DNA of 64,000 bases from Aedes albopictus (Eukaryota; Arthropoda; Insecta; Diptera; Culicidae), in contig NC_085136.1 in assembly GCF_035046485.1 (NCBI RefSeq), positions 223,018,853 through 223,082,852 on the forward strand, given 5' to 3'. The notes below the pieces were generated by a model. That model saw nothing but the letters and a program-made list of their open reading frames with translations. It was not told the origin of the DNA and ran no database searches. Shown in pieces: positions 3,841 to 60,016 of the stretch. The number at the start of each line of letters is the position of its first letter. Position 1 is the first letter of the stretch. The position numbers were made by a program, and so were the translations under genes.

Positions 3841-4332
3841 GTATTCCAATTATTAGAACCCAGCCAAACCTTGTGGATTAGATGTTACAAAAATATGAGG
3901 TATTATTATGCGGCTTCAAGTTCTTCTGGCATCTTGGAATCAAATTAGAGAAATTTAGTTGTTGAAGCTGAGCAAAGCACGTATTACTACGCGTGATTGT
4001 TACAGAACTGTACTTCTTTATGGGTTGCAAACAATCGTGAATGTTATGTAGCTATGTAGTATGAATTTATTTTCAAAAACATTATGTTTTTGACATAGAA
4101 AATTAGCTGCTGTTGTTATTGTGATCATTTAGAAATGTTATCCTACTTCAAATTTTATTCCATTTCAAATAATTAAAAATGAATATAAATGTGTTTTGGA
4201 CAAAAAATGTGATTCTCAGAATTGAATTTTTCTGAAAACTGATACGTTAGCTTACACCACCTTCAGCCAGATGTTACACTGGCATAAAACCATGACCACC
4301 AGAAAACGTAATGTATATCTAACTCTCAGAAT

Positions 4333-4440
4333 TATAGTAAAAAAAAATCATCGGCAGAAGCGGGAATCGATCTTACACTAGCTGAGACTAATAACAAAAC
4401 GAGCGACGTCTCTAACCGCACGGCCACGATTTCTAAACCG
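4333..4440 (-). ncRNA. tRNA-like segment (tRNA-derived repeat, not a working tRNA)
   Basis: On the minus strand a stretch reads GTGGCCGTGCGGTTAGAG (A-box-like) followed about 50 bp later by AGATCGATTCCC (B-box-like), then a T-run. This resembles the internal Pol III promoter of a serine/leucine-type tRNA. No full acceptor stem is seen. It lies in the 5' region of the piggyBac-like element, so it probably arrived as a SINE or MITE fragment. Confidence 0.45.
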
Positions 4441-4638
4441 TAAACACGAGTCGATCACAGACATGCATCCTGTGCGCTTCCACTAATACATATGTTTAAT
4501 TTTTATTGACATACACCAATATCTTTCCATGCAAAGGATGCAGTATGTCAGCAGTATATCCGGTAATCGGTGGATGCGGAAGCATTTTCGGTCTGTTCAG
4601 CTAATTGTCTCAAATTTTTGTGAGTTTGTGAGGTAAGA

Positions 4639-6934: not shown

Positions 6935-7099
6935 TTCAAATCTGAATTGAAGCAAAAAAGCATATTGTTTCACGAGCACAAAGACTCTGAAAATCTTCTC
7001 CACAAATGTAAATTTTTTTTTTCATATACATATAAATCCGAAACGTCAAAACATTTAGAAAATACAAAAAAAAAATCAAAATACTGAAGTTTGATATGT

Positions 7100-8552
7100 T
7101 GCATGAACAAACAACACTCACTAAAAATATTCAACGGAACCGGAACGCAGGAAATCCGTATATCGGGCCAAAGTATTTCAGCACGGATTGAAATGTATCC
7201 ATGATTTAGCTATCAAAACCATGAAGATTTAGGTGTTGCATGACAGTATAGATTTATTTTAAACAAATAACCCCGAAACGTGATTATGGAACATTTGCAT
7301 ACAAATTCCAAAGAGTCTAGCTATATTCTAAACGATAAATCACCGTGATAAAATGCCTTTATTTTCAAACTTATGAAGTTTGATATTATGCTTGAGAATG
7401 TTTGTTTACTTTCGAAAAACTGACCACGGAAGTGCCGGAGCCAGATGTAGGAAAACCTAACTACCAATTCCTAAACGCCAGATATATTTCAGACAATACA
7501 AAAATAGAACAGAATGATAGATCTTGACAAACTGTGACGTTTGATATGTCGCGTGGCGGTATTGAAACATTTTCAAAACATGACAACGGAACTACGTTAC
7601 GGAAAATATGTATTACCGATTCCTAAGAAGCCGAATATATTCTAAGTAACTAAACATCGTGATGAAATGCCATAACTTTGAAAATCATGAAGTTTGATAT
7701 GTCGCATGATGGTGTTTGTTTTTTTTTTTTCGAAAAACGAACCCCGGAACCACCGAAACCGATTCCCGGAAAATTCGAATACCGGTTCCAAAATGGCCAA
7801 CAGTATTTCAGATAGCGCAATAATAGCCCAGAATGATGTATTTTGAAAATCACGATGTTTGAGATGCCGCATGACGGTATTGAACCACTTTCAAAACTTG
7901 GTCCCGGAACTTGATTCCGGAAAATCTGTATACCGATTCCATAATGGCCAAATGTATCCTAAGTGGCCAATCATTATGATAAAATGCCACAACTTTCAAA
8001 ATCATGAAGTTTGATATGTCGCATGATGGTGTTTGTTTACTTTCGAAAATTGGACCCCCGGAACCGCCGGAACCGATTTCCGGGAATTCCGAATACCGGT
8101 TCCAAAATGGCCAACAGTATTTCAGACAACGCCAAAACAGCACAGAATGATGCATCTTGAAAAACCACGAAGTTTGAGGTGTCGCATGATGGTATTGAAT
8201 CATATTCAAAAATTGACCCCGGAACCGGTTCCCCGGAACATCCGTAAAACGGGTTCCAAGGCACGTAGTGACCGGGATGGACTTCTAGACAAATTTTTCT
8301 ATCATTCTAGTGCACTTAGGTCTGAAAACTGAACGGCTCTCATTTCGAAAATTCACTTTTTCCAAAATGGCCAAATCGAATGACCCATTTTGATTCCGGA
8401 ATAACTCCGGAACCAGGTGGCCATTCCAACAATCCCTAGCAAATCCTTAAATAGGAAGGATATCCGCTTATTGTGTCGAAATTTGGTCGAAAAATATTGA
8501 AAAACAAAAAAGTTATAACGAAAAGAGTATTTTTTCGCACTCTCGTTAGGGG
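7100..8552. repeat. Right arm: ~300-bp tandem repeats, inverted to the left arm
   Basis: This arm mirrors 2493-3840. The outer part (about 7670-8552) is nearly identical to the left arm in reverse complement, with a few single-base indels in A/T runs. Inner repeats near 7090-7640 are strongly diverged. It contributes the element's intact right end next to the TTAA target. Confidence 0.85.
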
Positions 8553-11211: not shown

Positions 11212-11340
11212 TAGACCTGTACGCCACCGCGCCACGCCGCCGCCGCTGACAGTTTTTGTCCCACGCCGACGCCGACCGAGGTATTGGCGGCGCGCCATAC
11301 GCCGCTGTTTGCCACGCCGCCGATTTTCATTTTTCGCACC
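11212..11340. repeat. GCC-rich left subterminal region of copy B
   Basis: Begins at the TIR TAGACCTGTACGCC and holds repeated CACGCCG motifs (CACGCCGCCGCCG, CACGCCGACGCCG, CACGCCGCCG). The motif is in the same orientation as in the right end at 16020-16125. Open frames here are composition artefacts. Confidence 0.7.
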
Positions 11341-11459
11341 GGTGATCAGTGCACGAACAAAATTTAATGTACGTAAAATTGAGGCAAAAAATCTCACAAT
11401 CACTATCATAAGAGCTTGACAACAATAATTGATATCTTATCAATGATTGTCGCTCCTAG

Positions 11460-12234
11460 ACGTTCCTGCAGGGATTCCTTCTGAAGATCCTTAAGAAATT
11501 CGTACAGGAGTTCTTACAGAAATTAGCCGAAGAGTTTATTTAGAGATTCCTCCAACAGTTTCAGAAATTCCTACAGAAGTTCCTTCAGAAATCTCTCCAG
11601 AAGTTCCTTCATAGAATCTTAGGGTTCAAGGATACATACCTCCAGCAGAATTCAGGGATACTCCCAGAAATATATTAAAGGATTTCTATATAAGAGTTTC
11701 TTCAGGATATCCTTAGGAGATTTTTCGAGAAGTTCCTTTCGCTCCTCGGTTTCTTTCAGATTGTAGGTTGAGATTGAGATTTTTCCAGCAGGACTCAAGA
11801 TGCTTCCATGATTTACATCAGAGATATCTCCAGAAGTTCATTCAGGAATTACTACAGGAGTTTCATAAGGGAATCTTGAAGGAATTCCTTCAATAATTTT
11901 CTTTAGATTATAATCAGTCGTATCTCCAGGATATTTTTGAGGGATCTTTTATGGAGTTTTCACTAGAATTCTTCCAGGATTTCCTTCTGAAATTCCTCCA
12001 AGAATTCTTTAGGGGACACTGCAAATCATACCCTAAAAGATTCCTTTTGGAGATTCTACTGGAAATCCTTCGAGGATCTCGCCTGGAATTCCTTCGGAGA
12101 TTCCTCCCAGAACTCATTCCGGAATTCCTTCGGGGATTCCTCCTGGAATTCCTTCGGGAATTTCTCCTAAACTTCCTTCATGAAATCCTCTTGAAACATT
12201 TTCGGGTATTTCTCCTAATATTCTGCCGTGGATT
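11460..12234. repeat. GGAATTCC-type minisatellite, first block of copy B
   Basis: Degenerate 12/24-bp units with CCTGGAATTCCTTC-like cores. The first ~500 bp are more diverged (TTCCTTCAGAAAT, TCCTACAGAAGTT forms). The block is interrupted at 12235 by the SINE. Confidence 0.85.
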
Positions 12235-12448
12235 AAAAAAAAAAAAAACACGGGGACACGTTCAATGCTTCCAGTGAGCTTTTCGCCCTTTGAAGGAAGC
12301 ACGACACTAGACAACGGACTAGCATGCAACGCCCAGTGGCACAACTGAAAACTTTTCCTGACAGCTGCGGCGGTAATCGAACCCGCGCTCCTCAGCACGA
12401 TGCGACTAAGAGCTTGGTGACCCTAGCCGCACGACCACGGAGCCGCAC
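12235..12448 (-). mobile_element. tRNA-headed SINE inserted in the minisatellite
   Basis: Read on the minus strand it starts near GTGCGGCTCCGTGGTCGTG with an A-box-like GTGGTCGTGCGGCTAG, then a B-box-like GGTTCGATTACC about 55 bp on, a ~120-bp non-tRNA body, and a run of 14 T. The target is visible: CAGCCGTGGATTTGAAATCTC at 12968-12988 is an uninterrupted relative of the flanks CTGCCGTGGATT and AATATCTTCTG. The organisation resembles the Feilai-type SINEs known from Aedes, but the T-run instead of an A-tail is odd. Confidence 0.65.
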
Positions 12449-15400
12449 AATATCTTCTGAAATTCCTTCGGAGTTTCCTCCTAAAATTTCTATGATAATT
12501 CCTCTTAGAATTCTTTCGGAGATTCCTCCTGGATTTCTTACAGGGATTTCTCATGGAATTCCACCAGGAGTGCCATAAGAATTCCTTCGGTGATTTCTCT
12601 TGGAATTTCATCGGGGTTTCCTCTTGAAAATCCTTCGAATATTCAGCTTGGAAATCCTTCGGAGATTCCAACCAGAATTCTGATTTTTCGGGGATCCTCC
12701 TGGGATTCCTGCAGAGATTTCTTCTGTAATTTCGTCGGGGATTTCTCCAGAAATTCCTTCAAGAATTCCTCCTGGAATTCCGTCGTATCCCTTTGGACTT
12801 CTTTCAGGGATTTCTCCTGGAATCAATTAGAAGTTCCTCTAAGAATTCCGCCGGAGATTCCTCCTAGATTTCTTTCGGAAATTCCTCCTTGCATTTTTCT
12901 GGGATTCCTTTTGCAATTTCTTCATGGATTCCTCCTGAAAAAAATTCGGGTATTTCTCATAATTTTCAGCCGTGGATTTGAAATCTCCTGAAATTCCATC
13001 GGAGTTCCTCGAATTTCTTTGATAATTCCTCTTAGAACTATTTCGGAGATTCCTCCTGGATTTCTTACAGGGATTTCTCATGGAATTTCGGCAGGAGTCC
13101 TATAAGAATTCCTTCGGAGATTTCTCTTGGAATTGCATCGGGGTTTCCTCTTGAAAATCCTTTGAATATTCGGCTTGGAAATCCTTCGGAGATTCCAACC
13201 AGAATTCTGATTTTTTTTTTCAGGGGATCCTCCTGAGATTCCTGCAGGGATTTCTACTGTAATTTCTTCGGGGATTTCTCCAGAAATACTTTCAAAAATT
13301 TCTCCTGGAATTCCGTCAAGTCTCTTTGGACTTTCTTTCAAGGGTTCCTCCTGGAATTAATTCTAAGTTTCTCTTAGAATTCCGCCAGAGATTCCTTCTA
13401 GATTTCTTTCGGTTATTCCTCCTTGCATGTCTCTGGGATTTCTTTTGGAATTCCTTCGGGGTTTCTCCTGGAATTCCTTCGGTGATTCCTTCTGGACTTA
13501 CTTCGAGGATTCCTCCTGAAATTTCATCGGCGATTTCTCTCGATATTTCATTGCGGATTCTTCTCGGACATACTGGAATTCATCCTGGAATTGTTGTCTG
13601 AAATTCCTCCTGGAATTACTTCGGAGTTTCCTCTTAGAATTCTTTCGAATTTCATTGGGGATTCCTTCTGGAGTTCTTCGGTGGAGTTGGGTATTCCCTC
13701 TGGACTTCCTTCAGGGACTCCTCCTAGAATAAATATGAAGATTCCTCCTAGAATTTCTTCGGTGATTCCTCCTTGAATTCCTTTTGAAAATCCAAAAGGG
13801 ATTTTTCCTAGAGTTCCTTCGAGGATTACTTCAGGACTTTCTCTGAGGATTCCTCCTGAAATTTCTTCAGGGATTCCTCTCGATATTCCGTCGGGGATTC
13901 CTCCTGGACTTTCTACTAGAATTCGTTCTGGAAATTTTTTTTTCGAAGATTCCTCTTAAAATTCCTTTGGTGATTCCTCTTCGAATTTTTTCGAAGATTC
14001 CTTCTGAAATTCCTTCGGGGATTCCTCATGGATTTCTTCCAAGGATTTCTCTAAGAATTCCTTTGGGGTTTCCTTCTGAATCTTTTTCAGTGATTTTTAT
14101 AGAATTCGTTTCAGGGTTTTCTTCCGGAGGTTCCTCTTGGAATTCCTTCGATGATTCCTCCTTGAATACTCTCAAGGATTCTCAAGGAATTCCTTGAGAG
14201 ATTCCTCATCAAGCCCGTGCGTGGGTTAAACCCCTCCCATTGTCTATGTTTTATACAATAGCCGCCCCTCCGCCCTTTGCCAAAATTAGGAATAACCCCT
14301 CCCCTGTCGCCTTTTATGTGCACGGACCTTTCCTTCTGGGTATTTTTCGTTTATTCTTCCTAGAAATTCTGTCGGCATTCTTTCTCTAATTCCCTTGAAA
14401 ATTCACAATCGAATCATTTTGGGGATTCCTGCTGGAATTTCTTTGTGGATTACTGCTGAAATTCTTTCGGGATTTAGTCTTGAAATTCCTGCGGGGATTC
14501 CTCCTAGAATTATTTGAGGGGTTCCTCATGGATTCCCTTCGTGGATTTCTTCTGGAATTCCTTCGAAGACTCCTCCTGGATGTTTTTTTCATGGTTCCTC
14601 CTAGAAATCCTTTGGGGATTCCTTTTTGAATTCTTTTGAAAATTATTTCTGGAATTTCCTTCTAATTTTCTAAAATTATTTATTGGATTCCTTCCGGAAT
14701 TCCTTCGGGGATTCCTCCTGATATTCCGACGAGGTTTCCTCTTGGAATTCCTACGGAATTTCCTCTGGGAATTCCTTTTTTTTCGGAGAATCCTCCTAGA
14801 ACTCCTTCGAGAATTTCTCTAAGATAGCTTTCGAGGATTCCTCTCGGATTTCTTTTGGGGGTTTCTCCGGTGGGGTTCTTCCTTCGGGGATTTTTTCCTG
14901 ATATTCCTTCAGGGATTCCTTCTAGTATTCCTTCGGGATTCCCGCTGGGAATCCCTTTGGTTATTCATCTTCGATTTTTTTTTCGGAGATTCCTCCTGGA
15001 ATTCCTCCGGGGATTTCCCTTAGAATTCAGTCGGGGATTCTACCTAAAATTCCTTCGGAGGATTCTTGCTGGAATTCCTTCGAGGATTCCTCGTGGAATT
15101 CTTTCGGCAATTCCTGCTTAAGTTCTTTCAGAGATTCCTCCTGGGTATTTTTCGTTGATTCCTCCTGAAAATTTTTCAGGGATACTTTTTTGAATTTCTT
15201 TGGAAATACCCACTGGAATTCTTTTGAGGATTCCTGCTGCAAATTCTTTGAATATTCCTGCATGAATCTCATTGAGATATCTGGATATTTTTTCGTTGAT
15301 TTCTCCTAGAAATTCTTCAGTAATTCCTTCTTCTCGAATTCCTTCAGAAATTCACGCTGGAATTCCTTCGGAGAATCCTTTTGTAATTCCCTTGGGATTT

Positions 15401-15680
15401 CTGCTAAAAATCATTCGGGGAATCCTCCTGGAATTCCTTCGGGGAATCCTCCTGGAATTCCTTCGGGGATTCGTTCTGGATTCTAAAATTCCTCAAAAAA
15501 TACAATCAGGGATTTCATCAGAAGCATCTGCAGGGATCTCTCTAATAGAGATTCTTGAACAACAAGAGATTCCTGCAGACGTTCCCTCAGGGTTTCATAC
15601 AGCAGTTCCTGCAGAGATTAATTTCTTCAAGGCTCCTCTTGGAATTCCTTCTGAAATTCCTCCCTGAAATAATTCGGGGA
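12449..15680. repeat. GGAATTCC-type minisatellite, main block of copy B
   Basis: About 3.2 kb of degenerate 12/24-bp units. A longer period is visible: 12590-12980 and 13095-13430 are near-copies (GAATTCCTTCGG through CAGAATTCTGATTTTT and onward), indicating local duplication of ~510 bp. A ~115-bp non-array insert sits at 14212-14326. Confidence 0.85.
14212..14326. mobile_element. Short insert in the array with GYCCGTGC ends
   Basis: The minisatellite pattern stops for about 115 bp with CCCCTCCC-rich sequence. The insert begins GCCCGTGCG and ends GTGCACGGAC, a short inverted repeat. No clear target duplication is seen, so it may be a small MITE or captured sequence. Confidence 0.35.
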
Positions 15681-17391
15681 TTCCTTAGTGTAGCTAATGC
15701 AACCTTATTATCAAATTTGAAAGATTCTGAAGGTTATATGAGAACAAAACAGAAACTGTAGCAAAATCGATATTGTATTGTCCTTCAGTTGCATTGAAGT
15801 ATACAACATGCACTACACCACGGATATAGGTAACATCACAATAGGTCTAACCACTGGTCTCAGCGACGGACCCGAATAGAAATATAAAAAAGGTATTCAT
15901 TTAATCGTAATAGTTTCTGTTATGCCATCAATGGTTATGAAAACGCTCAGACTACAAATTCTAGAGCGTAATGACAACTTCTTTGCTTTACCAAATGTTG
16001 ACATTATGGTCAAATTTTGGTCACGCCGATACACGCCGCCACCGCCCCCGCCGAAAGCTGTCAACGGCGTCACGCCGATGACGCCGCCGCCGACGGCCAA
16101 AAATGCCTCTCACGCCGCCGCCAAGCAAAATATACAGTCGAGACTCTTATAAGATCACTGGTCGTGGGGCGCAATAGGAATCCGCTTAATAGGAGACTAA
16201 GAGCTTATGGGATTTCGGCATTTTGGGGGTGTGGCCTATTATCTCGGGTGTGTTAAGAGTTAACGCAATGCTTTCTTCGGCAAAGTTTTAGGGCTTGATA
16301 AGATCTACCATTTAGAACTTTGGTTCATATGATTAGTTGGCAATTTGACCGCTAGAGCGACCATCAACAATTTGATGTTAAATTGCACTACGGGAGCCAT
16401 ATCAGGTTGTCAAGCAAACGTTACGATATGCGACAGCTTAAGACCCTGATAATTTAGAAGGATAGTGTCTTCGGGAAAGTTGTTGGGTACGCCAATAACT
16501 TACTGACGATGAGTTGCGAAGTTCGAAATTCCTCCACTGGGCGGCGCTAGTGAGCAAGTAAAATTTCAAAACCTCATATCTCAGAATCCCGATAACTTAG
16601 GAAGTTGGTGTCTTCGGCAAAGTTGATCAGTATAACTTACATAAAAATAAACACTTGTTTCGCAATTCTGCCACTAGGCGGCGCTAGTGAACATGCAAAT
16701 TTCAAAACCTCATATCTCAGAATCCCGATAACTTAGGAAGATGGTGTCTTCGGCAAAGTTGATCAGTATGACATGAACTTACATAAAAATAAACACTTGT
16801 TTCGCAATTCTGCCACTAGGCGGCGCTACTGAACATGCAAATTTTAGAAATCTCATAGCTCAGAATCCTGATAACTTAGAAAGTTGGTGTCTTCGGCAAA
16901 GTTGATCAGAATGACATAAACTTACATAAAAATAAACACTTGTTTTAAAATACTGCCACTAGGAGGCGCTAGTGAACTTGCAAATTTTAGAAATCTCATA
17001 GCTCAGAATTCTGATAACTTAGGAAGTTGGTGTTTTCGGCAAAGTTGATCAGTATGACATAAACTTACATAAAAATAAACATTTGTTTCGCAATTCTGCC
17101 ACTAGGCGGCGTTTACCGGGTTTTTTCGACTTTTATGGACTTTTTTGGCGGTTTTTCGGCTTTGCATGTTCACTAACGCCGCCTAGTGGCAGAATTGCGA
17201 AACAAGTGTTTATTTTTATGTAAGTTTATGTCATTCTGATCAACTTTGCCGAAGACACCAACTTTCTAAGTTGTCAGAATTCTGAGCTATGAGATTTCTA
17301 AAATTTGTATGTTCACTAGCGCCGCCTAGTGGCAGAATTGCGAAACAATTGTTTATTTGCCAAAGACACCATCTTTCTAAGTTAACGGGGG

Positions 17392-17616
17392 GGGCGACAC
17401 CAATGAGAGTATATTACAGGTGGGGAAGAAGAAGAGATGGCTATGTATTAGTAAGAAAAGAAAATGTAAACATAAATAGTGACGTCACTATTTGACACGC
17501 GTTCTTATGGGAGCTCGCTTTGATTGTAGTAGTGACATGTTTTGCACCAGACACGGATCCCACGCACACGAACTATCTTCTTCCCCACCTGTAATATACT
17601 CTCATTGGAGCGACAC
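17392..17616. mobile_element. 207-bp TIR element with 9-bp near-duplication, nested
   Basis: The element is 17401-17607, starting CAATGAGAGTATATTACAGG and ending with its reverse complement; the inverted repeat runs about 33 bp. Flanks are GGGCGACAC (17392-17400) and GAGCGACAC (17608-17616). The related uninterrupted sequence GAGCGACACTAG occurs at 18206-18217 in the same palindrome. A 7-9-bp duplication fits hAT or Mutator-like elements. Confidence 0.65.
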
Positions 17617-17903
17617 ACGGTCAGAAAATTCACTCATTTTCGAGCTAAAGTGGGACAACTCAAAATTGAGTAAATTTTTTTCCCAGCGATAGCGCTGGCC
17701 CAAGTGCAAAAATCTCATCAGTTTAAGCCGTATAATATTCTTGATGATGCGAAGAATATTATACGGCTTAAACCAGTTGGATTTTTGCACTTGGGTCAGC
17801 GCTATCGCTGGAAATGCAATTTACTCATTTTTTGAGCTGTTCCAGTTTAGCTCAGTTTTGTGTGAATCTTACTCATTTTAGAGTAACATTTTCTTAGCGT
17901 GCA
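17614..17903 (+). mobile_element. 286-bp MITE, copy 1
   Basis: The element is 17616-17901, flanked by CA. Ends are CACGGTCAGAAAAT and ATTTTCTTAGCGTG. It contains an inner fold-back around AAGCCGTATAATATTCTT. Reverse-complemented, copy 2 at 19248-19533 appears identical over the full 286 bp by eye. The empty site GCGACACTAG at 18208-18217 supports insertion. Confidence 0.8.
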
Positions 17904-19088
17904 CTAGTTTTGCTGAGCCGAAAAACCGCCAAAAAAATCGAAAAAAGACGAAAAAACCCGGTAAACTCCGCCTAGTGGCAGAATTGCGAAACAAATGTTT
18001 ATTTTTATGTAAGTTTATGTCATACTGACCAACTTTGCCGAAAACACCAACTTCCTTAATTATCAGGATTCTGAGCCATGAGATTTCTAAAATTTGAAAG
18101 TTCACTAGCGCCTCCTAGTGGCAGAATTTTGAACGAAGTGTTTATTTTTATGTAAGTTCTTGTCATTCTGATCAACTTTTCCGAAGACATCAACTTTCTA
18201 AGTTATCGGGGGGAGCGACACTAGTTTTGCCAAGCCGAAAAACAGCCAAAAATATCGAAAAAAGACGAAAAAACCCGGTAAACGCCGCCTAGTGGCAGAA
18301 TTGCGAAACACGTGTTTATTTTTATGTAATTTTATGTTATACTGATCAACTTTGCCGAAGACAGCAACTTTCTAAGTTATCAGGATTCTGAGCTATGAGA
18401 TTTCTAAAATTTGCATGTTCAGTAGCGCCGCCTAGTGGCAGAATTGCGAAACAAGTGTTTATTTTTATGTAAGTTTATGTCACACTGATCAACTTTGCCG
18501 AAGACACCATCTTCCTAAGTTATCGGGATTCTGAGATATGAGGTTTTGAAATTTTACTTGCTAACTAGCGCCGCCCAGTGGAGGAATTTCGAACTTCGCA
18601 ACTCATCGTCAGTAAGTTATTGGCGTACCCAACAACTTTCCCGAAGACACTATCCTTCCAAATTATCAGGGTCTTGAGCTGTCGCATATCGTAACGTTTG
18701 CTTGACAACCTGATATGGCTCCCGTAGTGCAATTTAACATCAAATTGTTGATGGTCCCTCTAGCGGTCAAATTGCCAACTAATCATATGAACCAAAGTTC
18801 TATATGGTAGATCTTATCAAGCCCTAAAACTTTGCCGAAGAAAGTATTGCGTTAACTCTTAACACACCCGAGATAATAGACCACACCCCCAAAATGCCGA
18901 AATCACATAAGCTCTTAGTCTCCTATAACGCTCACCCCTGTCTAGTAGGAGTTCGTTTAATAGGAGTCCGTTTAATAGGAATTCGTTTAGTAAGAGACTC
19001 GACTGTAGTCGGTGCACAGATCTAGTTGGCACCGGAAAGCGTCGACAAACCCGTTCCTACAAAAACCTAGAAGAAGTATCATATTCAT

Positions 19089-36575: not shown

Positions 36576-36639
36576 AGGAGGAGCACTAGCGTGCACAGGG
36601 GGGGGGCAAGGGGGGGGGGGCACTTGCCCCCCCTTCTAT

Positions 36640-39370
36640 AAAAAAAATTCTATGCACCATTTTTGCAATTCTTGCACCTTGGATCTTACCACGCAATGTT
36701 GAGAATCATTGAGCTATGGTGCACCATTAAAATATACAATTTCTTACGCACCATCTTCTAACTAATCAGTGATGTCAGCACCACATTTGAAAAACATGCA
36801 CCATTTTGGCATTTCATATTCCAAAACTGTATTCCATGTACGTGAACCATGGTGACTTCAGCACCACATTGAAATCTAAGCACCATTTTTGCAATTCGTG
36901 CACCATGCCATACAAAACAACGAGTATCACTGAATAACAGTGACGACTAATACAGCACACTAACATCATGCACCTTCTTCAAAGCTTTCAATGCACCATC
37001 ATGATGTCCACAGAATGATCTAGGTATCCACGTATTATGATGATCGCATGAAATGTCTTTTTATCAATTAAGTATCTAATACCTTATACTGGTAAGCACC
37101 ATCATGAAATTTCATGCACCATCACAGCTCTTCAAGCACCATGTCAGCGTTTATCATATCATCTAGGCATCTAAAGCACCGTAATGCCGTGAGCATCACA
37201 TGATATACATTTTTGTGTATGCTATGCACCATTTTTGCAATTCGTGCACCTAACCATATTGATAAGCTTTGAAAAACGGTGACAACTAATGCATCATCTA
37301 GTATCATGCACCTTCTTCAAAGCTTTCCAACCACCATTTTGGCATTCACTATATCATCTAGGCATCTTATGCACTATTATGATGTGGTTCACAAGTGAAT
37401 TTGATGCACCATTTTGGCATTTCGCATACAAAATAGCATTCATTGTACCTGGACTATGTTGATTTCTGTGCCGTATTGAGTTTCCTTCACCATTTTTGCA
37501 TTTCGTGCACCTACATATGGAATTTGTTGAGTATAACTGAATCATGGTAAAACTAATGCACCATACAGACATCATGTAGCTCCTTTGCATTCCATGCACC
37601 ACCATGATGATCACATAAATATCTAAGCACCATCTCACGCGTCATCTAAGCACACATTTGAATTTCATAAGCTCCATTTTGCCATATCGTACACTCAATT
37701 GTATTTCATGTACCTGATCCATGTTGACTTCCGCACCACATTAAATTATATACATCATTTTTGCAATTCTTGCATTTTGGATCTAACCACCCAATGTTGA
37801 GAATCACTGAATCATGGTGGCAACAAATGCACCCCTGATACATACAATTTCTTGTATCTCATGCACACCCATGATGTTCTCAGAATCATTTTTAGGCTAA
37901 TCTCACGCACCATCTTTTAACTAATCAGTGATGTCAGCACCATAATCGAATAACATGCACCATTTTGGCATTCCGTATTCCAAAACTGTAATACATGTAC
38001 GTGAATCATGGTGACTTCGGCACCACATTGAATTCCAAGCACCATTTTTGCAATTCGTACACTTAGCCATACACAATGGCAAATGTCGCTGAATAACGGT
38101 GACAACGAATACAGCACACTAACATCATGTACCTTCTTCAAAGCGTCCACAGAATGAACTAGGTATCCATGCATTATGCTGATCTCATGAATTATCTTTT
38201 AATCAACTAGAAATCTAATGTATCATACTGATATGCATCATCATTAAATTTCATGCACCATCACAGCTTTCCAAGCACCATTTCAGCGTTTATTATATCA
38301 TCTAGGCATCTGATGCACCATTATGTTGTGAGCATCACATAAAATATTTTTATTTTGTATTCTATGCACCATTTTTGCAATTCGTGCATCTAACCATGCA
38401 ACATGTTGATAATCTTTGAATAACGGCGACAACTAATGCAGCACACTAGCATCATATGCCTTCTTCAAAGCTTTCCATGCACCATTTTGGCATTCATTAT
38501 ACCACCTATCTTATGCATCATTGTGATGTGGTTTACATTTGAATTTGATGCACCATTTTGGCATTTCGCATACAAAATAGTATTCCACGTACCAGGAACA
38601 TGTTGATTTCTGTGCCACATTGAGTTTCCTGCACTTTTGCACGAATTGCATGTGCAGCTTAATATGGAACATGACGAGTATAACAGAATCATGGTGAAGC
38701 TAATGCACCATACAGACATCATGCACCACCATGATGTTCACAGAATCATCTAGGCAACATCTCACGCACCATCTTTGAATCAAATATGTGTGTAATTGCG
38801 AAATAATGCACCATCCTTAAATTTCATGCATTTCTAAAGCTTTTAATGCGTAATCGTGGCGTTCACTATATCATCTAGGCATCTATTGCACCATTTTTAT
38901 TGTATGAAGTTTCGTACATCGAAATACCATTTCTTGTACGATGCCAACTCTAATGTATCATACTGACATCAAGCACCATCTTTGAATGACATGCTCCATA
39001 TTAGCATTCAATGCACCATACCAATGAACTCAGTGTTATCAGAAGATCCTATACACCACGGTGACATCATGCACCTTTATTGCCTCACGCAATTTGATTT
39101 TTATGCAGCACCAACATTTTTATGTTTACACCATCTCCAAATCTCATGTTTTATCTTAGCATTCTATAGATCAAATGGCAATTACTTGCCACGCATGCAT
39201 TATCTCGACGTACCCTTGATCATTAGGGTATATAATGAACCATACTCACATCACACACCTTTTTAAAATTCTAAACACCTTCTTGGTGTTCATTGTATCA
39301 TCCACAATTGAATTTTATATACCATTTAGTGATTCGCGCATCAAAATAGCATTCCGTGGATCATTTTGAG
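36640..39370. repeat. GCACCAT-motif repeats with ~1.15-kb higher-order period
   Basis: ATGCACCATTTTTGCAATTC and GCACCATTTTGGCATT recur every 30-60 bp. A longer unit is visible: 36760-37190 aligns with 37912-38340, and 37310 onward with 38460 onward, a shift of about 1152 bp. The motif keeps one orientation throughout. Confidence 0.85.
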
Positions 39371-39399
39371 AATCACTTTACCAGCTCGAGAAATATTTG

Positions 39400-42300
39400 G
39401 AGTAATCCGTGGAGGCATTCTAGGAGAAATCCCTTGAAAAATTTCAGGGGGAATCCTTGAAGGACTTTCTGGAGGAATCCCTGAAGGCATTACTAAAGAA
39501 GTGCTTGAAAGAATTCTTGAAAGAAGCTCTCAAAAACTGGAAGAAGAGTCTAGAAATTCCTGTAGAATTTGCAGGAGGAACTACTAAAAGAATTGCTGGA
39601 AAAATTATTGAAGGAATTCCCTGGAGGCATTCCTAAAGGAATCCTTGAAGAATCCGTAGAGGAATTCGTGAAAGAATTCATAGAGGAATTTGTGGAGAAA
39701 TATTTCGAAAAACTCCTGGACAAATTTCCTGAAGAGTTCCAGCAGGGGTCATTGACGAACCCCTGGAGGATTTCCTGGAGTAAACTCTGGAGGCATTCCT
39801 GGAAGAAACCCTGGAGGAATTCTTAGAAGAATTTCTGGAGGAGTCTCTGAAGGCATTCCTGAAGGAATCCTTGGAAGAATGCCTGGAGGTTTCCTTGTAA
39901 GAATTCCTGGAGGAACTTCTGGAAGAATGTCCGGAGGAATTTCTGCTGGAATCCCTGAGGAAATTTCTGGAGGGACATTTGGAGGAGTTTCTAGAAGAAT
40001 TCCTGGAAGAAGCTATGAGAAATTTCTGGAGAAATCCTTGATGTAATCCCCGGAGGAATTTTTGAAGGAATTACAGGATGAAACACTGGAGGGGTAACAG
40101 AAGGAATTCATGAAGGAATCCATGGAATAATTCATGGAGGAATTGCAGGAGGAATTGCTGGAGGAATTCCTGAAGGATTATTTGAAAAAAAAAAAAAATG
40201 CTGCATGAATTTGTGGAAGAATTACTCGAAATTCAATGACGAATCCTTGCAGAAATTACTGGAGAAATCTCTGGAGGAATTTGTGGAGCAATTCCTGAAG
40301 GAATTTTTGGAAGAATCCGTGAATAAAATCTTGAAAGAATTTCTGGAGGCATTCTTTCGAGAATTATTGGAAGAATTTCTGGAGGATTTTCAGGAGGAAT
40401 GCTTGGCTGAATCCCTGGAGACACTCATAGAGGAAATCCTAGAAAATGCTTTGGAAAATTCCTGGAGAAATCCCTGCTGAAATCCTAGGAGGAATTCTTG
40501 AAGGAATCCGTAAAGGAATTCAAGGATGAATCCCTGGAGAATTACTAGAGAAACTTCTGGAACAATCACTAGAGTAGGAAATCCTGGAAGAATTTCTGGA
40601 GGATTTCCTGAAGGAATTCTTTGAAAATATTCTGGAAAAATATTTGCGGCTTCCTGGAATGATTAAACGAACTCCTCGAGCAAAAGAATTCCTAGAGGGA
40701 TTTTTGAGGAACTCCTGAAGAAATTCTTGGAGAAATTCCTGGCGAAATCCATGGAGGAATACCCGAAAAAATTTTCGAGGAATTCCTGGAACAGTTCCAG
40801 GAGAGTTTTTTTTTTTCTGGAGAAATTCATGGATAAATTCTAGAGGAATTCTTGGAGGAATCTATGAAGAATTTTTTAGATGATTTTCTGGAGCAATTAA
40901 TAGAGAAATAAGAGAAATCCGAGCAGGAATTCCTTTAGGAGTCGTTGCAGAAATTCCTTGAGGAATCTCTGTAGAAATTCCCGGAGGTATTCAAGATGGA
41001 ATTAACGAAGGAATTTTTGAAGGAATAATGGAGGAATTCCTGGAGCAATTTCCGAAAGAATTCTTAGAGGTATATTTTTGCGAAACATTCCTGGAAGATT
41101 TTCTTGAAAAATCTTTGGAGAAATTCCTGGAGGAATCCATGTTTGCATTCCGGGAGGTATTTCTGGATAAATTCCTGAAGAATTTTGTGGTGGAATAACT
41201 AGAGAAATTCCTGGATGAATTCTTTAAGGAATTTTTGGACAAATATTTAAGGCTTCTTGGAGGAATGTCTAGAGGAACTCCTCGAGAAATTTGTAAAGGA
41301 TTTTTTTTGAGTAATTTCTGAAGAAACTCATGGATGAACTCCTGGATGAATTCCCGAAGAAATTCCTGGAGGAATCCATGGAGAAATCCCTAAAGGAATT
41401 CCTAGAGAAATACCCAGAAAAGATCTGGGAAAATCCCTGCTGTATTCCTAGGAGGGATTCCTGAAGGAAACTGTGAAGGAATTCAAGGATAAATCCCTGG
41501 AGAATTCCTACAGAAATTTCTGGAAGAATCCTTAAAGATTTTTCTGGAGAAATTCCTGAAAAATGAAGGAATTCCTGGAAAAAATTCTGCAGGATTTCCT
41601 GAAGGAATTCTTTGAAGAATTTCAGGAAAATTTTTGCGGCTTCCTGGAGGAATGATTTAAAGAACTCCTCGAGCAATTTCTGAAAGATTTCCTAGAGAGA
41701 TTTTTGAGGAATATCTGAAAAAAATCATTGATGGAATTCCTGGCGAAATCCAAGGAGGAATCCCTGGAGAAATTTTTCGAGGAATTCCTTGAGGAATTCC
41801 TGGAACAGTTCCGGGAGAAGTTTTTTTCTGGAGAAATCCGTGGATAAACTCTTGGAGGAATACCTAGAGGAATTCTTGGGGGTATCCATGAAGATTTTTT
41901 TTAGGACTTTCTGGAGCAAAATCTACAGAATTTTTTATAGTTGTCCCAGGAGAAATTTCTGGAGAGATTCTTGGAAAATTTCCAGAAAAGAAAATTCTGT
42001 AGAAATCCCTGGAAAAAGCTCTCGAGGAATTCCTGGAAGAGTTCCGGGAGAAATTTCTTCAGGATTTTCTGGAGAAATCCGAGCAGGAATTCCTTAAGGT
42101 ATCCTTTCAGAAATTCCTGGAGGAATCCCTGTAGAGATTCAAGATGGAATTACTGAATAAATTTTTGAAGGAATGAATGGAGGAATTCCCGAAAGAATTC
42201 TTTGAGGTATTTTTTGCGAAACATTCCTGGAGGAATTCCTGGAGAAATTCCTGGATGATTTTCTTCGGGAATCTCTGGAGAAATTTCTGGAAGAATCCAT

Positions 42301-45300
42301 GTTTGCATTCCGGGAGGTATTTCTGGATAAATTCCTCCAGATTTTTTTGGAGGAATTCATTTATGAATTCTTAGAGGAATAACTAGAGAAATTCCTGAAT
42401 GAATTCTTTAAGGCATTTCAGGACAAATATTTAAAGCTTCCTGGAGGAATGTCAGGAGGAACTCCTCGAGGAATTAATAAAGGATTTTTTTAGCAATTTC
42501 TGAAGAAACTCATGGATTAATTCCCGAAGAAATTTCGGAGGAATCCATGAAGAAATCTCTGGATGAATTCCTAGAGAAATTTCCGGAAAACATCCGGGAA
42601 AAATTCTTTTAGGATTTTCTGGAGAAATTAGTCGAGGAATTTCTGGAAGAATTCCTGGAGACAATATTGGAGGAATTCTGGCAGAAATTCTTAGAGAATT
42701 TTCTGTAGGAATTCCGGCAGCAATCCCTGGAGGTATTTCATGAGGATTCCATGAAAGTATCCCTGGAGGTATTCCTAGAAGAGTTCTGGGAGAAATTGAT
42801 TGAGGATTATGTGGAGGATTCCGTGAAGGATTTCCTGGAAAAATCCCTGGATGAATGCCTTGAGAAATTTCTGGTGGAATCCATGGAGGGAGGAATTTCT
42901 GAAAGAATTCCTGGAGAAATTCCTGGAGGAATCCATGGAGGTATCCCTGAAGGAATTCTTGGAAGGGTTCCGGGAGACATTTCTTTAAGATTGTCTGGAG
43001 GAATTCTGACAGAAATTCCTAGAGGATTTTCTGGAGTAATTCCTGGAGGTATTTCTGGATGAATTTTTGAAGAAATGAATGAATCCCTGAAGAAATCCTT
43101 GAGAATTTCCTGTAGAATTTCCTGGAGGAATCCATGGATGAATTGCTCGAGAAATTCCAGGAGGAAATCCTGGAAGAGTTACGGGAGAAATTCCTTTATG
43201 ATTTTCTGGAGGAATCTGTAGAGCAATTCCTTGAAGCAATTCCTGGAGGAAATATTGAAGAAATTCTGGCAGACATTCCTAGAGGATTTTCTCTAGAAGA
43301 AATTTCATGAGGAATCTCTGGAGGATTTCCTGGAGGTAATTCTGAAGAAATTTCTGGAGTATTTACTTGTCCTTGATAATTTCCTGTAGAATTTCCTGGA
43401 GGAATCCATGGAAGAATTGCTCTAGAAATTCCAGGGGGAAATCCTGGAAGAGTTACGGGAGAAATTCCTTTATGATTTTCTGGAGAAATCTGTAGAAGAG
43501 CAATTCCTTAAAGAATCCCTGGAGGAAATATTGAAGAAATTCTGGCAGTCATTCCTAGAGGATTTTTTCTAGAAGAAATTTCATTAGGAATCTCTGAAGG
43601 AATTCCTGGGGGTAATTCTGGAGGAATTCCTGGAGGTAATTCTGAAAAAATTCTGGAGTATTTACTGCAGGAATTCCTGGAGGAATTATTTGGGGAAATT
43701 CTGGAGAAACATATGAGGCTTCATGGAGAAATTTCTGAAGGAACTCCTCGAGGAATTTTTGAAGGAATTTCTGGAGGAATTTCTGCAGGATTTTTTTAAA
43801 GAATTTCTGAAGAAATTTTTCAACGAATCCCTGCAGGAACTCCTTGAGAAACTCCTAGAAAAAGTTCTGGAGGAATACTTTGAGGAATGCAATGAGAAAT
43901 CCCTGTAGTTTTGGTGAAAATTCCCAGAGGATTTTTTAGTGGAATCCCTGGAGGAGTTCCTGGTAGAATTTCTGGCGCTCTTCCTTAAGAAATTTCTGAA
44001 AGAATTCCCGGAGGAATTTTTGCGGAATTTCTGAAGCAATGCCTCGAGAATTTCCTGGAGGAATCCATGGGGGATTTTTCGAGGAATTCTAGGAGGAATT
44101 CCTGAAAGAGTTCCGTTAAAAATTCATCTAGGATTATCTGGAGGAATGCGAGGATCAATTCTTAGAGAAATCCCTAGGAGAAATATTGTAGAAATTCTGA
44201 CAGTCATTCCTAAAAGAAAATTTCAGGCGGAATCTGTGGAGGAGTTATTGGAGTATTTACCAGAGGAATTATTTGAGGAATTTCTGGTGAAATATATGAG
44301 GCTTCCTGGAAAATTAATGGAGGAATGTCTGAAGGAACTTCTCGAGGAATTTCTGAAGGAATATCTGGAGGAATTTCTGAAGACATTCATCATTACATTC
44401 CTGGAGGAATTCCTGAAGAAATTTCAGGAAACAATCCTGGAGAAATTCCTAGGGGAGGATTCCCTGGTGGAATTTCTCGCGGACTCATTCAAGGAACTCC
44501 TGAAAAAATTCCTGGAAGAGTTTCGGGTGAAATTACTTTAGGATTTTCTGGTGGAGTTCATGGATGAATTTCGGGGAGAAATCCCTGGAGGCATCTCGGA
44601 GGAATTTCTGGAGGAATGTCTGAAGGAACTACTCGAGCAAATTGTAAAGGAATACCTGGAGGAGTTTTTTGAGGAATTTCTGAAGAAATTTATGAATGAA
44701 TTCCAGCAGGAATTCTTGGATAAATTGCTGGAAAAAATCCTGAAGAAATTCCTGAAGGAATCCGTGGAGGATTTCCTGGACAAATTCCTTGCGTAATTCC
44801 TCGAGGAATTCTTGGAAGGGTTCCGGGAGACATTCTTGGGGAACTCAGGCAGACATTCCTAGAGGATTTTGTGGAGGAATTTCAGGAGTTCTTCCTCGAC
44901 AAATTTCTGAAAGAATTCCTGGTGGAATTTCTGGAGGATTTTTTGTGGAATTTCTGAAGAAATCCATGGAGGAATTTCTGATGAAATTGTTTGAGAATTG
45001 CCTGGAGGAATCCATGGAAAAATCCTTAAAGAAACTTCTGGAGGAACACCTGGAAGAATTCCGTGAGAAATTCCTTTAGTATGTTATGGAGGAATCCGTG
45101 GAGGAAATATTGGGGGAATTCTGAGAGACAGACATTCAGGATTTTTCCTAGAAAAATGTCAGGAGGGATCTCTGGAGGAATTTTAGGAGTATTTACTGGA
45201 GGAATTCCTGGAGGATTTATTTGAGGAATTTCTGGAGAAATATATGAGGCTTCCTGGAGAAATGTCTGAAAGAACTCCTCGAGGAATTTCTGAAGAAATT

Positions 45301-46300
45301 CAGTAATGAATCCCTGGAGAAATTCCTTGAGAAATTTCTGGAAAAAATCCTAAAGAAATTCCTGGAGGATTGCCTGGAGGTATTCCTGGAAGAGTTTTGG
45401 AAGAAATTCCTTTAGGATTTTCTGCAGGAATCCGTGGAGGGATTCCTGAAAGAAATCACTGGTTGCATATTGGAGGAATTTCTAAAGAAATGTCTGAGGG
45501 AACCCCTCGAGGAATTCATAAAGGAATATCTGGAGGAATTTCTGAAGAAATTCATTATTGAATCCCTGAAGGAATTCCTGAAAAAAATCCTGGAAAAAAT
45601 TCTGAAGAAATTACTAGAGGGATCTGTGGATGATTTCCTGTAGAGGTTTCTGGCGAAATTTTTGGAAGAGTTCCGGGAGACATTCTTTTAGGATTCTCTG
45701 GAGAAATTCTGGCAGAAATTTCTAGAGGATTTTCTGGAAAAATCCCAGAGGAATTCCATGAGGAATTCTTGGAGGATTTTTTTTTGATGAATTCATGTAG
45801 GAATTTCTAGCGTTATTTTTCGTGAAATTTCTGAAGGAATTTCTGGAGGAATTTGTTGAGGAATTTAAGGATTTTTTTTAAATCATTCATGGATGAATCC
45901 CTGAAGGAATTTCTGAAGAAATTCGTTGAGCATTTCCTGGATAATTTTCTAAAGGAACTCCTGGAGGAATTTCTCGAGAAATTCCAGGAAGATATTCTTT
46001 AGAAATTCCTTTAGGATTTCCTGGGGGATTCCGTGGAGCAACTCTGGCAGACATTTCTAGAGGATTTTTCCTAGAAGAAATTTCAGGAAGAATTCCTGAA
46101 GGGAATTTTGGAAGAATTCCTGGAGTATTTGCTGGAGGAATTCCTGGAAGAATTATTTGAGGAATTTCTGGGGAAATATATGAGACTTCCTGGAGGAATT
46201 TCTGAAGGAATTATTGGAAGATTTTTGGGGGAATTCTTGGAGGAACTCATGCACGAATCTTTGGAGAAATCCTGGAGGAATCTCTGTAGATTGCAACAAG
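39400..46300. repeat. 6.9-kb GGAATTCC-type minisatellite (reverse orientation to copies A and B)
   Basis: Degenerate 12-bp units CTGGAGGAATTC and CTGAAGGAATTT alternate over 6.9 kb. A marker AAATATATGAGGCTTCCTGG or close variant recurs at about 40648, 41252, 41635, 42427, 43710, 44299, 45241 and 46170, showing irregular higher-order units of roughly 0.4-1.3 kb. The leucine/glutamate-rich frames (EEFLKEFLEE) exist because the 12-bp unit is a multiple of three and lacks stops; they have no conserved start or flanking signals. Confidence 0.9.
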
Positions 46301-46713
46301 GATTCGATCAAAATGTTCTATCTAGGAGTTCTGATATTCTCTAATTCTAGCATCACTAATTGTCTAGGATCAAAATTCTTTCACAACGACAATTTTTTTT
46401 TTCTATAATTGATAATTTTCTAGATATTCTCCATTGTATTTGATACGTTTATAAAATTTTATAAGAGTCGAGATAATGACTTCATATTAAAGTTTCGTAT
46501 TGCCTTGAAATCATCACCATCCAAAGCCTTCTCCAGAATCCCAATATGAAGTACTTGGCGATGTTAGCACCACAACATGTTGAAACCCCTACTTGGGAAT
46601 TCATATTGCGTGTAACACCATCGTTCTATTTTGCACCATGATCATGCATATATTGCACCATTATTATAGTGCCCCCCCTAAGCAAGAATCCTGCGCACGC
46701 TAGTGAGGAGGAG

Positions 46714-54340: not shown

Positions 54341-55595
54341 TTACAGTTCGTCATGCTCGGCATCTTCGTCGGCGTTAACTTCTTCTTGCTCATCCTTGGA
54401 GTCCGCGCCGGTGTCCTCCTCGACGAACTCCTTCGGTTCCGGTTGTTCGTCCTGCGAGACGACCAAGGTCTGGCGCATCATCCGCTCGATGCTGTCGGCA
54501 AAGTTGGCCGTTTCTGGCAGCTGGAATCCGGACCGCAGGGTGGCGGTGTTCAACATCAGGACGGCCATATCCTTGGCCACAACGTCATCGGAATCGGCTT
54601 CTACTCGACAGAGCAGCTCGCGCATCAGCGGATGCCGGGGGTTGATTTCGAGGGTCTTGCGCTGGTTCAGGTAGTACTGCCGTTGTGGGTCATCAGTCTT
54701 CTGGTGGCCATTGGCCAGAGCCAGACGTTCCATGTTGCCGGTCCAGCCAAACATGGAAGCAACCAGGGCACAAGGCGAGTTGGATAGACGTTCCGAGACC
54801 AGGGCCTTGGCTATCTTGTCCTTGAGGGCGACATCGTTCCAACACTTCAGCAGCGGTTCGAATTCGGTCTTCAGTTCGTCAAAGTTGGCCTTGGCTTCCT
54901 CGGACTCGTTCAGGATGAAGCCTTCCTTGGAACTTCTTGCCGTCGAACTCGGGCAGAGCGGAAATGGAGTACTCGTCAACGGCTTCAACCAGGCACAGGG
55001 CTTCGTAGCCACGTGAGAGCAGGCGTTCGGCGAAGCGAGTCTTCTCGACTTCGGCACAGCAAGATCCGGCAATGAAGTAGATGTGTTCCTGCTTGGGCTT
55101 CATCCGAGAGACGTAATCGGCCAGAATGGTGTACTCCTTGGAGCTCTTGCTGTTGGACTACTGGAACCGGAGCAGCTTGGCCAGACGGGACCGATTGCTG
55201 GGGTCTTCCATGATTCCCAGCTTGGCGTTGGTGGAGAATTCCTTCCAGAGCTTGTCGTACGTTTCCTTCTCCAGCTTCTTGATTATGTCGAGCGCCTTGC
55301 GGACGAGCTTCTTCTTGATGACCTTGATCAGCTTGTGCTGCTGGAGGGTTTCACGGGAAACGTTCAGCGGCAGATCGTCCGAGTCGACGACACCCCGGAA
55401 GAAGTTCAGATAGTTGGGCATCATGTCGTTGAACTCATCGGTGATGAACACCCGGCGGACAAACAGCTTGATGTTGTCCGACTTGGTACCGTACTTGTTG
55501 AAACTCTCCGATGGCTGAACCTTCGGGATGAACAGCAGCGACTTTAAGGTCACTTCACCTTCAGCGACGAAGTCAGTGTTGCCGGTAACACTATA
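54341..55595 (-). pseudogene. Gp93: Endoplasmin (GRP94/Gp93-like ER Hsp90), 5'-truncated and broken
   Basis: The product would be the ER-resident Hsp90 chaperone. Visible are the late middle domain ([59 protein letters not shown]), the C-terminal dimerisation domain ([46 protein letters not shown]) and an acidic tail ending in the retention signal HDEL. The ATP-binding N-terminal half is absent. Two lesions break it: an in-frame TAG at 55158-55160 (after LLRFQ, before SNSKSSKEY) and a frameshift near 54929 where a few bases between KKFQ and KEGF are missing. Upstream of about 55570 the similarity stops; ATTTATAG at about 55589-55596 could be an old splice acceptor. Only ~405 of about 790 residues are represented. 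Sequencing error could explain a lesion, but two plus truncation favour a duplicated pseudogene. Confidence 0.85.
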
Positions 55596-56396
55596 AATAC
55601 TTCAAATTTACTTTTGTACAACTAAAACTTCTATTGCTATTCTCAATTAAGCCATAATGAATGTACATAGAGTGGAAGTACACAAGTTAATTTAGAATAC
55701 TAAATTCAAAAAGGCTGGTTCCAGAAAGAACGTAGAGATAGAAAGAGGAAGAAAGAAGACACACTATCACAACAACGGTGCATTTTTACCGTCATCCCCT
55801 TCTGATCGTTCCATCGCTAACCACTCGGCACGAACAATCTCATTTTTCCATTCTAGGAAGGAATGTGTTCTGATAAGTACAAGCACAATCCCTGCTCCCT
55901 GTCATTTCTGTGCCACAACACGCGCACAGATGGAATGCAAACACAGTGCAGTGTGACCTGATGATACGACAAAGCTCTATACCAACGACGATGACGACGA
56001 AGTCCCTGGCTGGTTGACAACCGCCTTCACATTGCGCCACAAACGTCGTCGCACTATCCATCCCGTTCAACCAAACTCTGCACGTTTTAGATGGATCATG
56101 GATATCGCACCGCGTGCCAGTCCATGCCGCTGATCTCATTTACCACTTTGCTGATTTCGATCTGATTGCCGGCGAATGTTCACTCAATGTTGGTCGGGAA
56201 AACTGGTAAGTGCAATGCTTTTGGAAATGATTTGATCACGTTTGCGAATATGTAGATGTTTTGGGGACTTTTAGAGATGCTAGAAGTACCCTTTCAAATT
56301 CAAATACTCTTGGTGCAAAAAGTGTAAAGCTACCTTTCTTTTTAATAGTAATAAAATTGAATAGGGTATATGTGCCATCAGTAATCTCACGCTCCC
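55596..56396. other. 800 bp without a recognisable gene
   Basis: No recognisable domain, repeat or remaining endoplasmin exon on either strand. Confidence 0.4.
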
Positions 56397-56850
56397 AAAT
56401 TCATCCTATTCAAAAACAAGCGATTACGAGACCGATTGATTCCGTTCTTTTTGTTTTCGTGGGTGCTCACTTCTAACAAAAAATACTAAAATAAGAAACA
56501 AAACAAACAGCGCTCCAATCCAATCCAATTTCGTAGAATGAAAATGGGAGCCACATGATTAATAAGGGAACCAATACCCTACAATAAGTTTCGGAGAATA
56601 TGTAATTGTGCTGTATGTTAATAAATTATTGTATCATATAAATATGGATTATAGATTTAATCTGTACTTTACAAAATATCATCTAGTTTAAAAATCATAA
56701 ATATAATATTTGATTAAAATACAAATAAAAAGTAAAATATGCCACTATTATCTATGTTACTTTTCTGTATTTGGAAGAACTAAGTGTTCACATTATTATA
56801 AATGCCAGTTTACGTTGAGTGCACACAATCTATCCCCATCCAAAACGGAG
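56397..56850. repeat. 454-bp direct duplicate, copy 1
   Basis: Matches 59563-60016 in the same orientation at a constant offset of 3166 bp with no indels. I see only two substitutions (AAACAAACAG versus AAACTAACAG, and TTATCTATG versus TTATCCATG). Contents are A/T-rich and non-coding. Confidence 0.9.
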
Positions 56851-59562: not shown

Positions 59563-60016
59563 AAATTCATCCTATTCAAAAACAAGCGATTACGAGACCG
59601 ATTGATTCCGTTCTTTTTGTTTTCGTGGGTGCTCACTTCTAACAAAAAATACTAAAATAAGAAACAAAACTAACAGCGCTCCAATCCAATCCAATTTCGT
59701 AGAATGAAAATGGGAGCCACATGATTAATAAGGGAACCAATACCCTACAATAAGTTTCGGAGAATATGTAATTGTGCTGTATGTTAATAAATTATTGTAT
59801 CATATAAATATGGATTATAGATTTAATCTGTACTTTACAAAATATCATCTAGTTTAAAAATCATAAATATAATATTTGATTAAAATACAAATAAAAAGTA
59901 AAATATGCCACTATTATCCATGTTACTTTTCTGTATTTGGAAGAACTAAGTGTTCACATTATTATAAATGCCAGTTTACGTTGAGTGCACACAATCTATC
60001 CCCATCCAAAACGGAG
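59563..60016. repeat. 454-bp direct duplicate, copy 2
   Basis: See 56397-56850. Beyond both ends the two copies diverge abruptly (GCTCCC versus CCGGAA before; GTCAGG versus ACCCCA after). Confidence 0.9.

Follow-up and report, generated by a model that had tools for sequence, protein, structure and literature searches.

A high-copy, very probably hAT-type DNA transposon of Aedes albopictus with a body made mostly of satellite

Tandem repeats inside non-autonomous transposons are already known (PMC4079207, PMC12628747, PMC9659126, PMC8978399). In Tetris / DAIBAM of Drosophila virilis, for example, repeats of ~220 bp lie within the terminal inverted repeats, TIRs (PMC4079207). Here we study a stretch of 64,000 nucleotides from Aedes albopictus (contig NC_085136.1 of assembly GCF_035046485.1), hereafter the window. 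It contains an element of 10,122 bp (36584-46705), flanked directly by AGGAGGAG on both sides, with short TIRs and an interior filled by repeats. The region is very probably one copy of a high-copy, non-autonomous DNA transposon of hAT type, ~9-10 kb long, whose body is mostly satellite. We refer to this family as family A.

Several described systems share a part of this organization. Tetris / DAIBAM, too, is a TIR element that appears to be non-autonomous, and its internal tandem repeats contribute to satellite DNA (PMC4079207). However, the Tetris repeats sit within the TIRs, whereas the window element has TIRs of 16 bp and its arrays fill the interior. miDNA4 of Xenopus and the miniature inverted-repeat transposable elements (MITEs) of Donax trunculus are similar in being non-autonomous class II elements with an array of changeable copy number; what is described there are MITEs and MITE-derived arrays, while the intact unit of the window family is ~9.4 kb and the window copy is 68% minisatellite (PMC12628747). 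Jozin, a CACTA-like DNA transposon of Chenopodium, took up a satellite DNA array and has subterminal repeats, but its array was added near the 3' end, the element was located by its transposase domain, and its target-site duplication (TSD) is 3 bp against 8 bp in the window family (PMC8978399). The ends also resemble those of Hermes and hobo, with an 8-bp TSD, short imperfect TIRs that differ between the ends and asymmetric subterminal repeats (PMC10368747, PMC2803484). Hermes, in contrast, is ~3 kb and encodes a transposase; the window copy is three times longer, and neither a transposase nor any other Pfam match was seen in the 10 scanned of the 29 open reading frames (ORFs) of at least 90 aa that overlap it.

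Searching the literature by titles and starts of abstracts, we found among the matches listed no ~9-kb, mostly-satellite family with hundreds of ends; an entry in a transposable-element library may exist. At least 8 letters of the TIR occur in the text of 234 papers; among the matches listed, an 11-mer of it is contained in two, one on a mycotoxin and one on oat, judging by title. Within a known theme, a unit of ~9 kb that is present in many copies and consists largely of satellite is an unusual variant.

Paired ends and target-site duplications

The original prediction, made from the letters alone, held that identical flanks and a 16-bp TIR with one mismatch enclose the satellite block. Its interval, 36576-46713, is the element plus its two TSDs. 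Both observations hold: AGGAGGAG adjoins both TIRs, and these are identical at 15 of 16 positions. Within three mismatches the TIR motif occurs at only two places in the window, which are the two ends of the element.

Chance might have placed an inverted match of 16 bp and a flank rich in purines around a satellite block, and the flank of the window copy does invite this explanation: it is a short, periodic AGG tract, in which a duplication of 2, 5 or 8 bp fits equally well. The window was scanned exhaustively for inverted pairs of 16 bp that are separated by 0.15-20 kb and adjoined by a direct repeat of 8 bp. With one mismatch or none there are 13 such pairs, including the window element. In the other 12 (11 without mismatch, one with a single mismatch) the "flanks" are palindromic and the pair is part of long inverted arms, so that the window element is the sole pair that is no by-product of such arms. 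In 100 local dinucleotide shuffles there were no pairs with at most one mismatch and three with two. From base composition, and given the 73,270 direct 8-mer pairs actually present in the window, 0.0014 such TIR matches are expected. Together with the genomic ends and the duplications described below, which include 8-bp duplications not made of purines, this makes the probability of a chance arrangement practically negligible.

Ends of the family were searched in the window's own assembly (1.34 Gb) as exact matches to the terminus CACTAGCGTGCRCAGG. There are 667 of them (342 + 325), while the reversed-pattern control gives 0. Pairing was analyzed for 100 listed ends of the 667, all on one contig (C1). 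As anticipated in the original prediction, the ends come as inverted pairs: 78 of the 100 form 39 convergent pairs, with no other arrangement of neighbours within 30 kb. Random placement gives 0.47 pairs on average and at most 4 in 1,000 trials. The pairs have a median length of 9,379 bp, with 7.9-12.5 kb as the range of 32 of the 39. This size, with the 68% minisatellite of the window copy, agrees with the proposal of an unusually large non-autonomous TIR element with tandem-repeat cargo. A rough extrapolation from the pairing rate of this one contig to all 667 ends gives ~2.4 Mb of paired elements.

The two ends of the family are not equivalent. An A-form and a G-form of the TIR stand at opposite ends in all 39 listed pairs, and the single TIR mismatch of the window copy is thus a fixed difference between the two ends. 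Further, the GCACCAT-rich region described below is at the A-form end in each of the 21 copies examined whole (20 fetched copies and the window copy).

The element does not fit two other classifications. A MITE would have a length of hundreds of bp, far from the median of the 39 pairs, and the shortest pair (2,489 bp) is an internally deleted copy. A foldback element would have long TIRs of tandem repeats, but the arrays of the window element are almost wholly one-stranded and its ends align only over the 16 bp and a G-tract. The TIR also has three exact matches in IMG/VR viral contigs. Their inner sequences are unrelated and none has an exact inverted partner within the stretch compared (two of these are parts of longer contigs), so that they are taken as chance.

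The duplication length was read from the flanks of 40 copies, the window copy and the 39 listed pairs. An exact 8-bp TSD is present in 34 of the 40, and one more matches at 7 of 8 positions. When left and right flanks are swapped between copies, 0 of 1,560 combinations match. The other copies thereby settle what the window copy alone leaves ambiguous: 8 bp is the duplication length of the family, and the identity of the window flanks is more than purine-rich chance.

Two copies allow a direct comparison of occupied and empty sites. L020 and L026 are found in two copies of a host repeat, at insertion points 51 bp from each other. The flanks of L020, joined over one TSD, match the uninterrupted left flank of L026 at 145 of 150 positions, and the joined flanks of L026 match the right flank of L020 equally well (145/150). 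These reciprocal empty sites show precise insertion of complete units of 9.3 kb and 8.6 kb. For the window copy, an uninterrupted site would read GGGGGAGGAGGAGTCC...

Inheritance of the internal arrays

The window copy has two main blocks. The first is a degenerate GCACCAT-rich region, in which the commonest motif spacing is 20 bp and where 30 exact motifs are on the + strand and one is on the other; in the whole window GCACCAT occurs 36 times, 33 of them within the element. A block of ~0.8-0.9 kb is duplicated in this region at an offset of 1,159 bp (36742-37647 and 37901-38774, 80.6-82% identity). The second block is a GGAATTCC-type minisatellite of ~6.9 kb, followed by ~370 bp of non-array sequence that includes two GCACCAT motifs ahead of the right TIR. 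The prediction of 2.7 kb of GCACCAT repeats and 6.9 kb of minisatellite is therefore right as to the presence of both blocks (27% and 68% of the element), but overstates the repeat nature of the first. Its periodicity is weak (0.348 at lag 20 against a median of 0.269) and Tandem Repeats Finder makes no call in it, so that the word satellite strictly applies to the minisatellite only.

If a short element had been inserted and each copy had then grown its own satellite, the arrays of different copies should not share their order. Of the listed pairs, 23 are short enough to be contained in a stretch of 10 kb, and 20 of these were fetched, all of them shorter than the pairs of 12-25 kb. The array of the window copy was cut into 57 windows of 120 bp, and the best matches of these were located in each copy. 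In 14 of the 20 copies the order of the window array is followed: at least 28 of the 57 windows have a match of 80% or better, with a rho of at least 0.96 among these, and over all 57 windows rho is 0.79-0.98. The median match is 104-111 of 120 bases (87-93%) in 13 of the collinear copies and 95 of 120 (79%) in L013, while the best non-self match inside the window array is 86 of 120 (72%). Collinear order and matches above the level found within the array show that the arrays are homologous block by block and were copied with the element. Separate growth could account for the variation in array length and for three copies that carry a different array version, but given the shared order it is very improbable.

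The internal minisatellite is thus inherited collinearly by most copies examined, and the block moves as one piece. Of the 20 fetched copies, 17 have a 12-bp periodicity in half or more of the windows that were sampled. Over the left 1.76 kb, the median pairwise identity is 94% in 11 copies, the window copy included, that were selected because their left ends align. For the right ends of all 21 copies the median is 88%, going down to 58% against the window copy; the low values may reflect alignment across indels.

The GCACCAT motif has a regular placement: in all 21 copies the left end and the first motif are separated by 53-75 bp, and the last motif starts 50-58 bp from the right end. By its position, such a motif would suit a subterminal binding repeat. 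We examined GCACCAT as a selected transposase-binding repeat (an "antenna") in the same 11 copies with alignable left ends, and rejected it. Differences from the majority base amount to 4.06% in the motif and 4.15% in the spacers, and 809 of 1,739 circular shifts give a value as low or lower. Since GCACCAT is no better conserved than its surroundings, we regard the arrays as passengers; selection confined to the source lineage may still have acted.

In one copy, L030, the flanks match the GGAATTCC-type minisatellite in opposite orientation. This may be a satellite nested in a satellite through transposition.

Superfamily and mode of spread

The convergent TIR pairs, the exact 8-bp TSDs and the collinear arrays together bear out the proposal that the whole satellite block is a single transposition unit: intact blocks have been inserted, bounded by TIRs and duplicating 8 bp. 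For its superfamily, the length of the TSD, the length of the TIRs and a modest nTnnnnAn-like bias point to hAT. Elements of this superfamily have TIRs of 10-25 bp and TSDs of 8 bp (PMC3942097), and the window element has 16-bp TIRs, inside this range, and the 8-bp TSD of the majority of its relatives. The target preference of Hermes is nTnnnnAn (PMC10368747). In the 34 exact TSDs, 30 of 68 half-sites agree with this pattern, T being at position 2 in 11/34 and A at position 7 in 19/34 (P 0.0005 against a background of 25%, 0.0096 against 30%).

A number of observations weigh against this reading. The bias in the target sites is modest and uneven between the two positions. The element is larger than the 2.5-5 kb given for hAT elements (PMC3942097). 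The hAT dimerisation domain PF05699 has 138 matches in the genome (150 of 194 candidates scored), but none of the 14 on the listed part of C1 is within the 39 family pairs, and no family TIR with at most three mismatches is found near the best 30 of the 138 loci, within ~1.5 kb on each side. Further, 22 of the 100 listed ends are unpaired and five of the 40 copies (L012, L021, L027, C1:110797250 and C1:154004790) have no abutting 8-bp duplication, although L027 has similar flanks with a shifted partial duplication. Finally, six of the 20 fetched copies depart from the array of the window copy. L015, L023 and L026 have another array version, in which L023 and L026 are collinear with each other; L012 and L022 have large internal deletions; and in L018 the sequence between the family ends is for the most part a different one. 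In the L018 interior no transposase was found in the 10 scanned of 15 ORFs of at least 80 aa, one of which has a DUF2838 match below the curated cut-off.

The unpaired ends and the pairs lacking abutting duplications could also be taken to mean that the satellite block was spread by segmental duplication or ectopic recombination, with MITEs merely at its edges. Such events would bring flanks along, whereas 34 of the 40 copies have a duplication of their own and the insertions of L020 and L026 into paralogues of a single sequence are precise and reciprocal, which makes this origin extremely improbable.

A CACTA (CMC/EnSpm) element is suggested by the TIR, which begins with CACTA. CACTAGCG is present at 40 of 40 left ends examined, an agreement imposed by the search pattern. 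Repeated subterminal motifs are present as well, and in Chenopodium the capture of satellite arrays by CACTA-like elements has been described (PMC8978399). However, CACTA elements make 3-bp duplications according to the same source, and in family A a 3-bp duplication match is seen in one of 40 copies, which also matches at 8 bp. To the extent that the superfamily is defined by the length of its TSD, this refutes membership in CACTA, which we consider very improbable.

Another superfamily with 8-bp duplications may instead move the element, either P, Merlin or an undescribed one. Merlin and P also give duplications near 8 bp, and the searches based on PF05699 tied no transposase to the family TIRs. 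On the other side is the nTnnnnAn-like bias of the TSDs. In addition, hAT termini of the type CAGNGGCGTAGC..AGG are similar to the family TIR. We regard a different superfamily as unlikely.

For a hAT-type element the following mode of spread can be envisaged. A hAT transposase encoded elsewhere would act in trans on the TIRs and the subterminal sequence, cutting the unit out and pasting it in at another site. The arrays would be copied passively at each transposition, and would be altered mainly in the lineages of source copies, by higher-order duplications, giving rise to at least two array lineages.

Other satellite carriers in the window

The features of the window are listed in Table 1, which in addition to the parts of the family A element includes three neighbours.

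Table 1. Positions of the family A element, its parts and neighbouring elements in the window.
Feature	Position	Strand	Remarks
C, piggyBac-type transposase pieces between inverted arms	~2493-8552		DDE_Tnp_1_7, four separate ORFs
B2, second TIR family	11212-19024		imperfect TIRs TAGAYCTGTRCRCC; exact 8-bp TSD GTTGGCAC on both sides
D, inverted-arm element with 143-bp tandem repeats	16135-19005		inserted in B2; TA duplication
Target-site duplication, left copy AGGAGGAG	36576..36583	.	8 bp fixed by the family; 2, 5 or 8 bp possible from the window copy alone
Left terminal inverted repeat CACTAGCGTGCACAGG	36584..36599	+	A-form
G-tract / GC-rich subterminal stretch	36600..36636	+	GGGGGGGCA common to left and right ends
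Degenerate GCACCAT-rich region	36650..39390	+	~2.7 kb, 27% of the element
GGAATTCC-type minisatellite	39398..46290	+	12-bp unit CCTGGAGGAATT, 57% matches, higher-order duplications (Tandem Repeats Finder)
Right-hand non-array sequence	46290..46560	+	
Two GCACCAT motifs	46633..46661	+	73 and 51 bp from the right end
Right terminal inverted repeat CACTAGCGTGCGCAGG	46690..46705	-	G-form
Target-site duplication, right copy AGGAGGAG	46706..46713	.	

A second family, B, has the terminus TAGACCTGTGCGCCGAC and is represented by two copies. For B1 the right end is at 2476-2492, with the left end beyond the window; this end has 544 genomic matches, and the control has 0. The TIRs of B2 differ from the B1 end by 3 and 2 mismatches of 17, and B2 carries a 24-bp relative of the family A minisatellite on the other strand. 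Pairs with five mismatches number 197 in the window scan against a shuffle mean of 13, so that B2 is unremarkable by sequence alone and its identification rests on B1 and the count of the family. The empty site of D, with a single TA, is visible in B1. In C, the arms are ~1.2 kb long, built of ~312-bp tandem repeats and up to 99% complementary.

Elsewhere in the window there is an HSP90 gene on the minus strand (54341-55601, two matching ORFs) and a direct duplication of 454 bp (56397-56850 and 59563-60016, 99.6% identity, offset 3,166 bp).

All seven Tandem Repeats Finder rows of at least 500 bp in this one window fall within A, B, C or D, and in the genome as a whole the number of exact ends exceeds 500 both for family A and for family B. 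It is tempting to generalize that the dispersed multi-kb satellite blocks of the genome are largely bodies of DNA transposons, with several unrelated TIR families spreading intact arrays by cut-and-paste; we put this forward tentatively, as a possibility that is more doubtful than probable.

Repeat annotation would probably break up arrays of this kind, with "simple repeat" as one entry and a few ends resembling MITEs as others. The dispersal of satellite blocks has long been a puzzle. In family A, with its hundreds of ends, an array of several kb was carried along by a transposon, and individual copies can be compared in the order of the array. The family also shows that a transposon can spread at ~9 kb when most of the sequence enclosed by its ends is tandem repeat.

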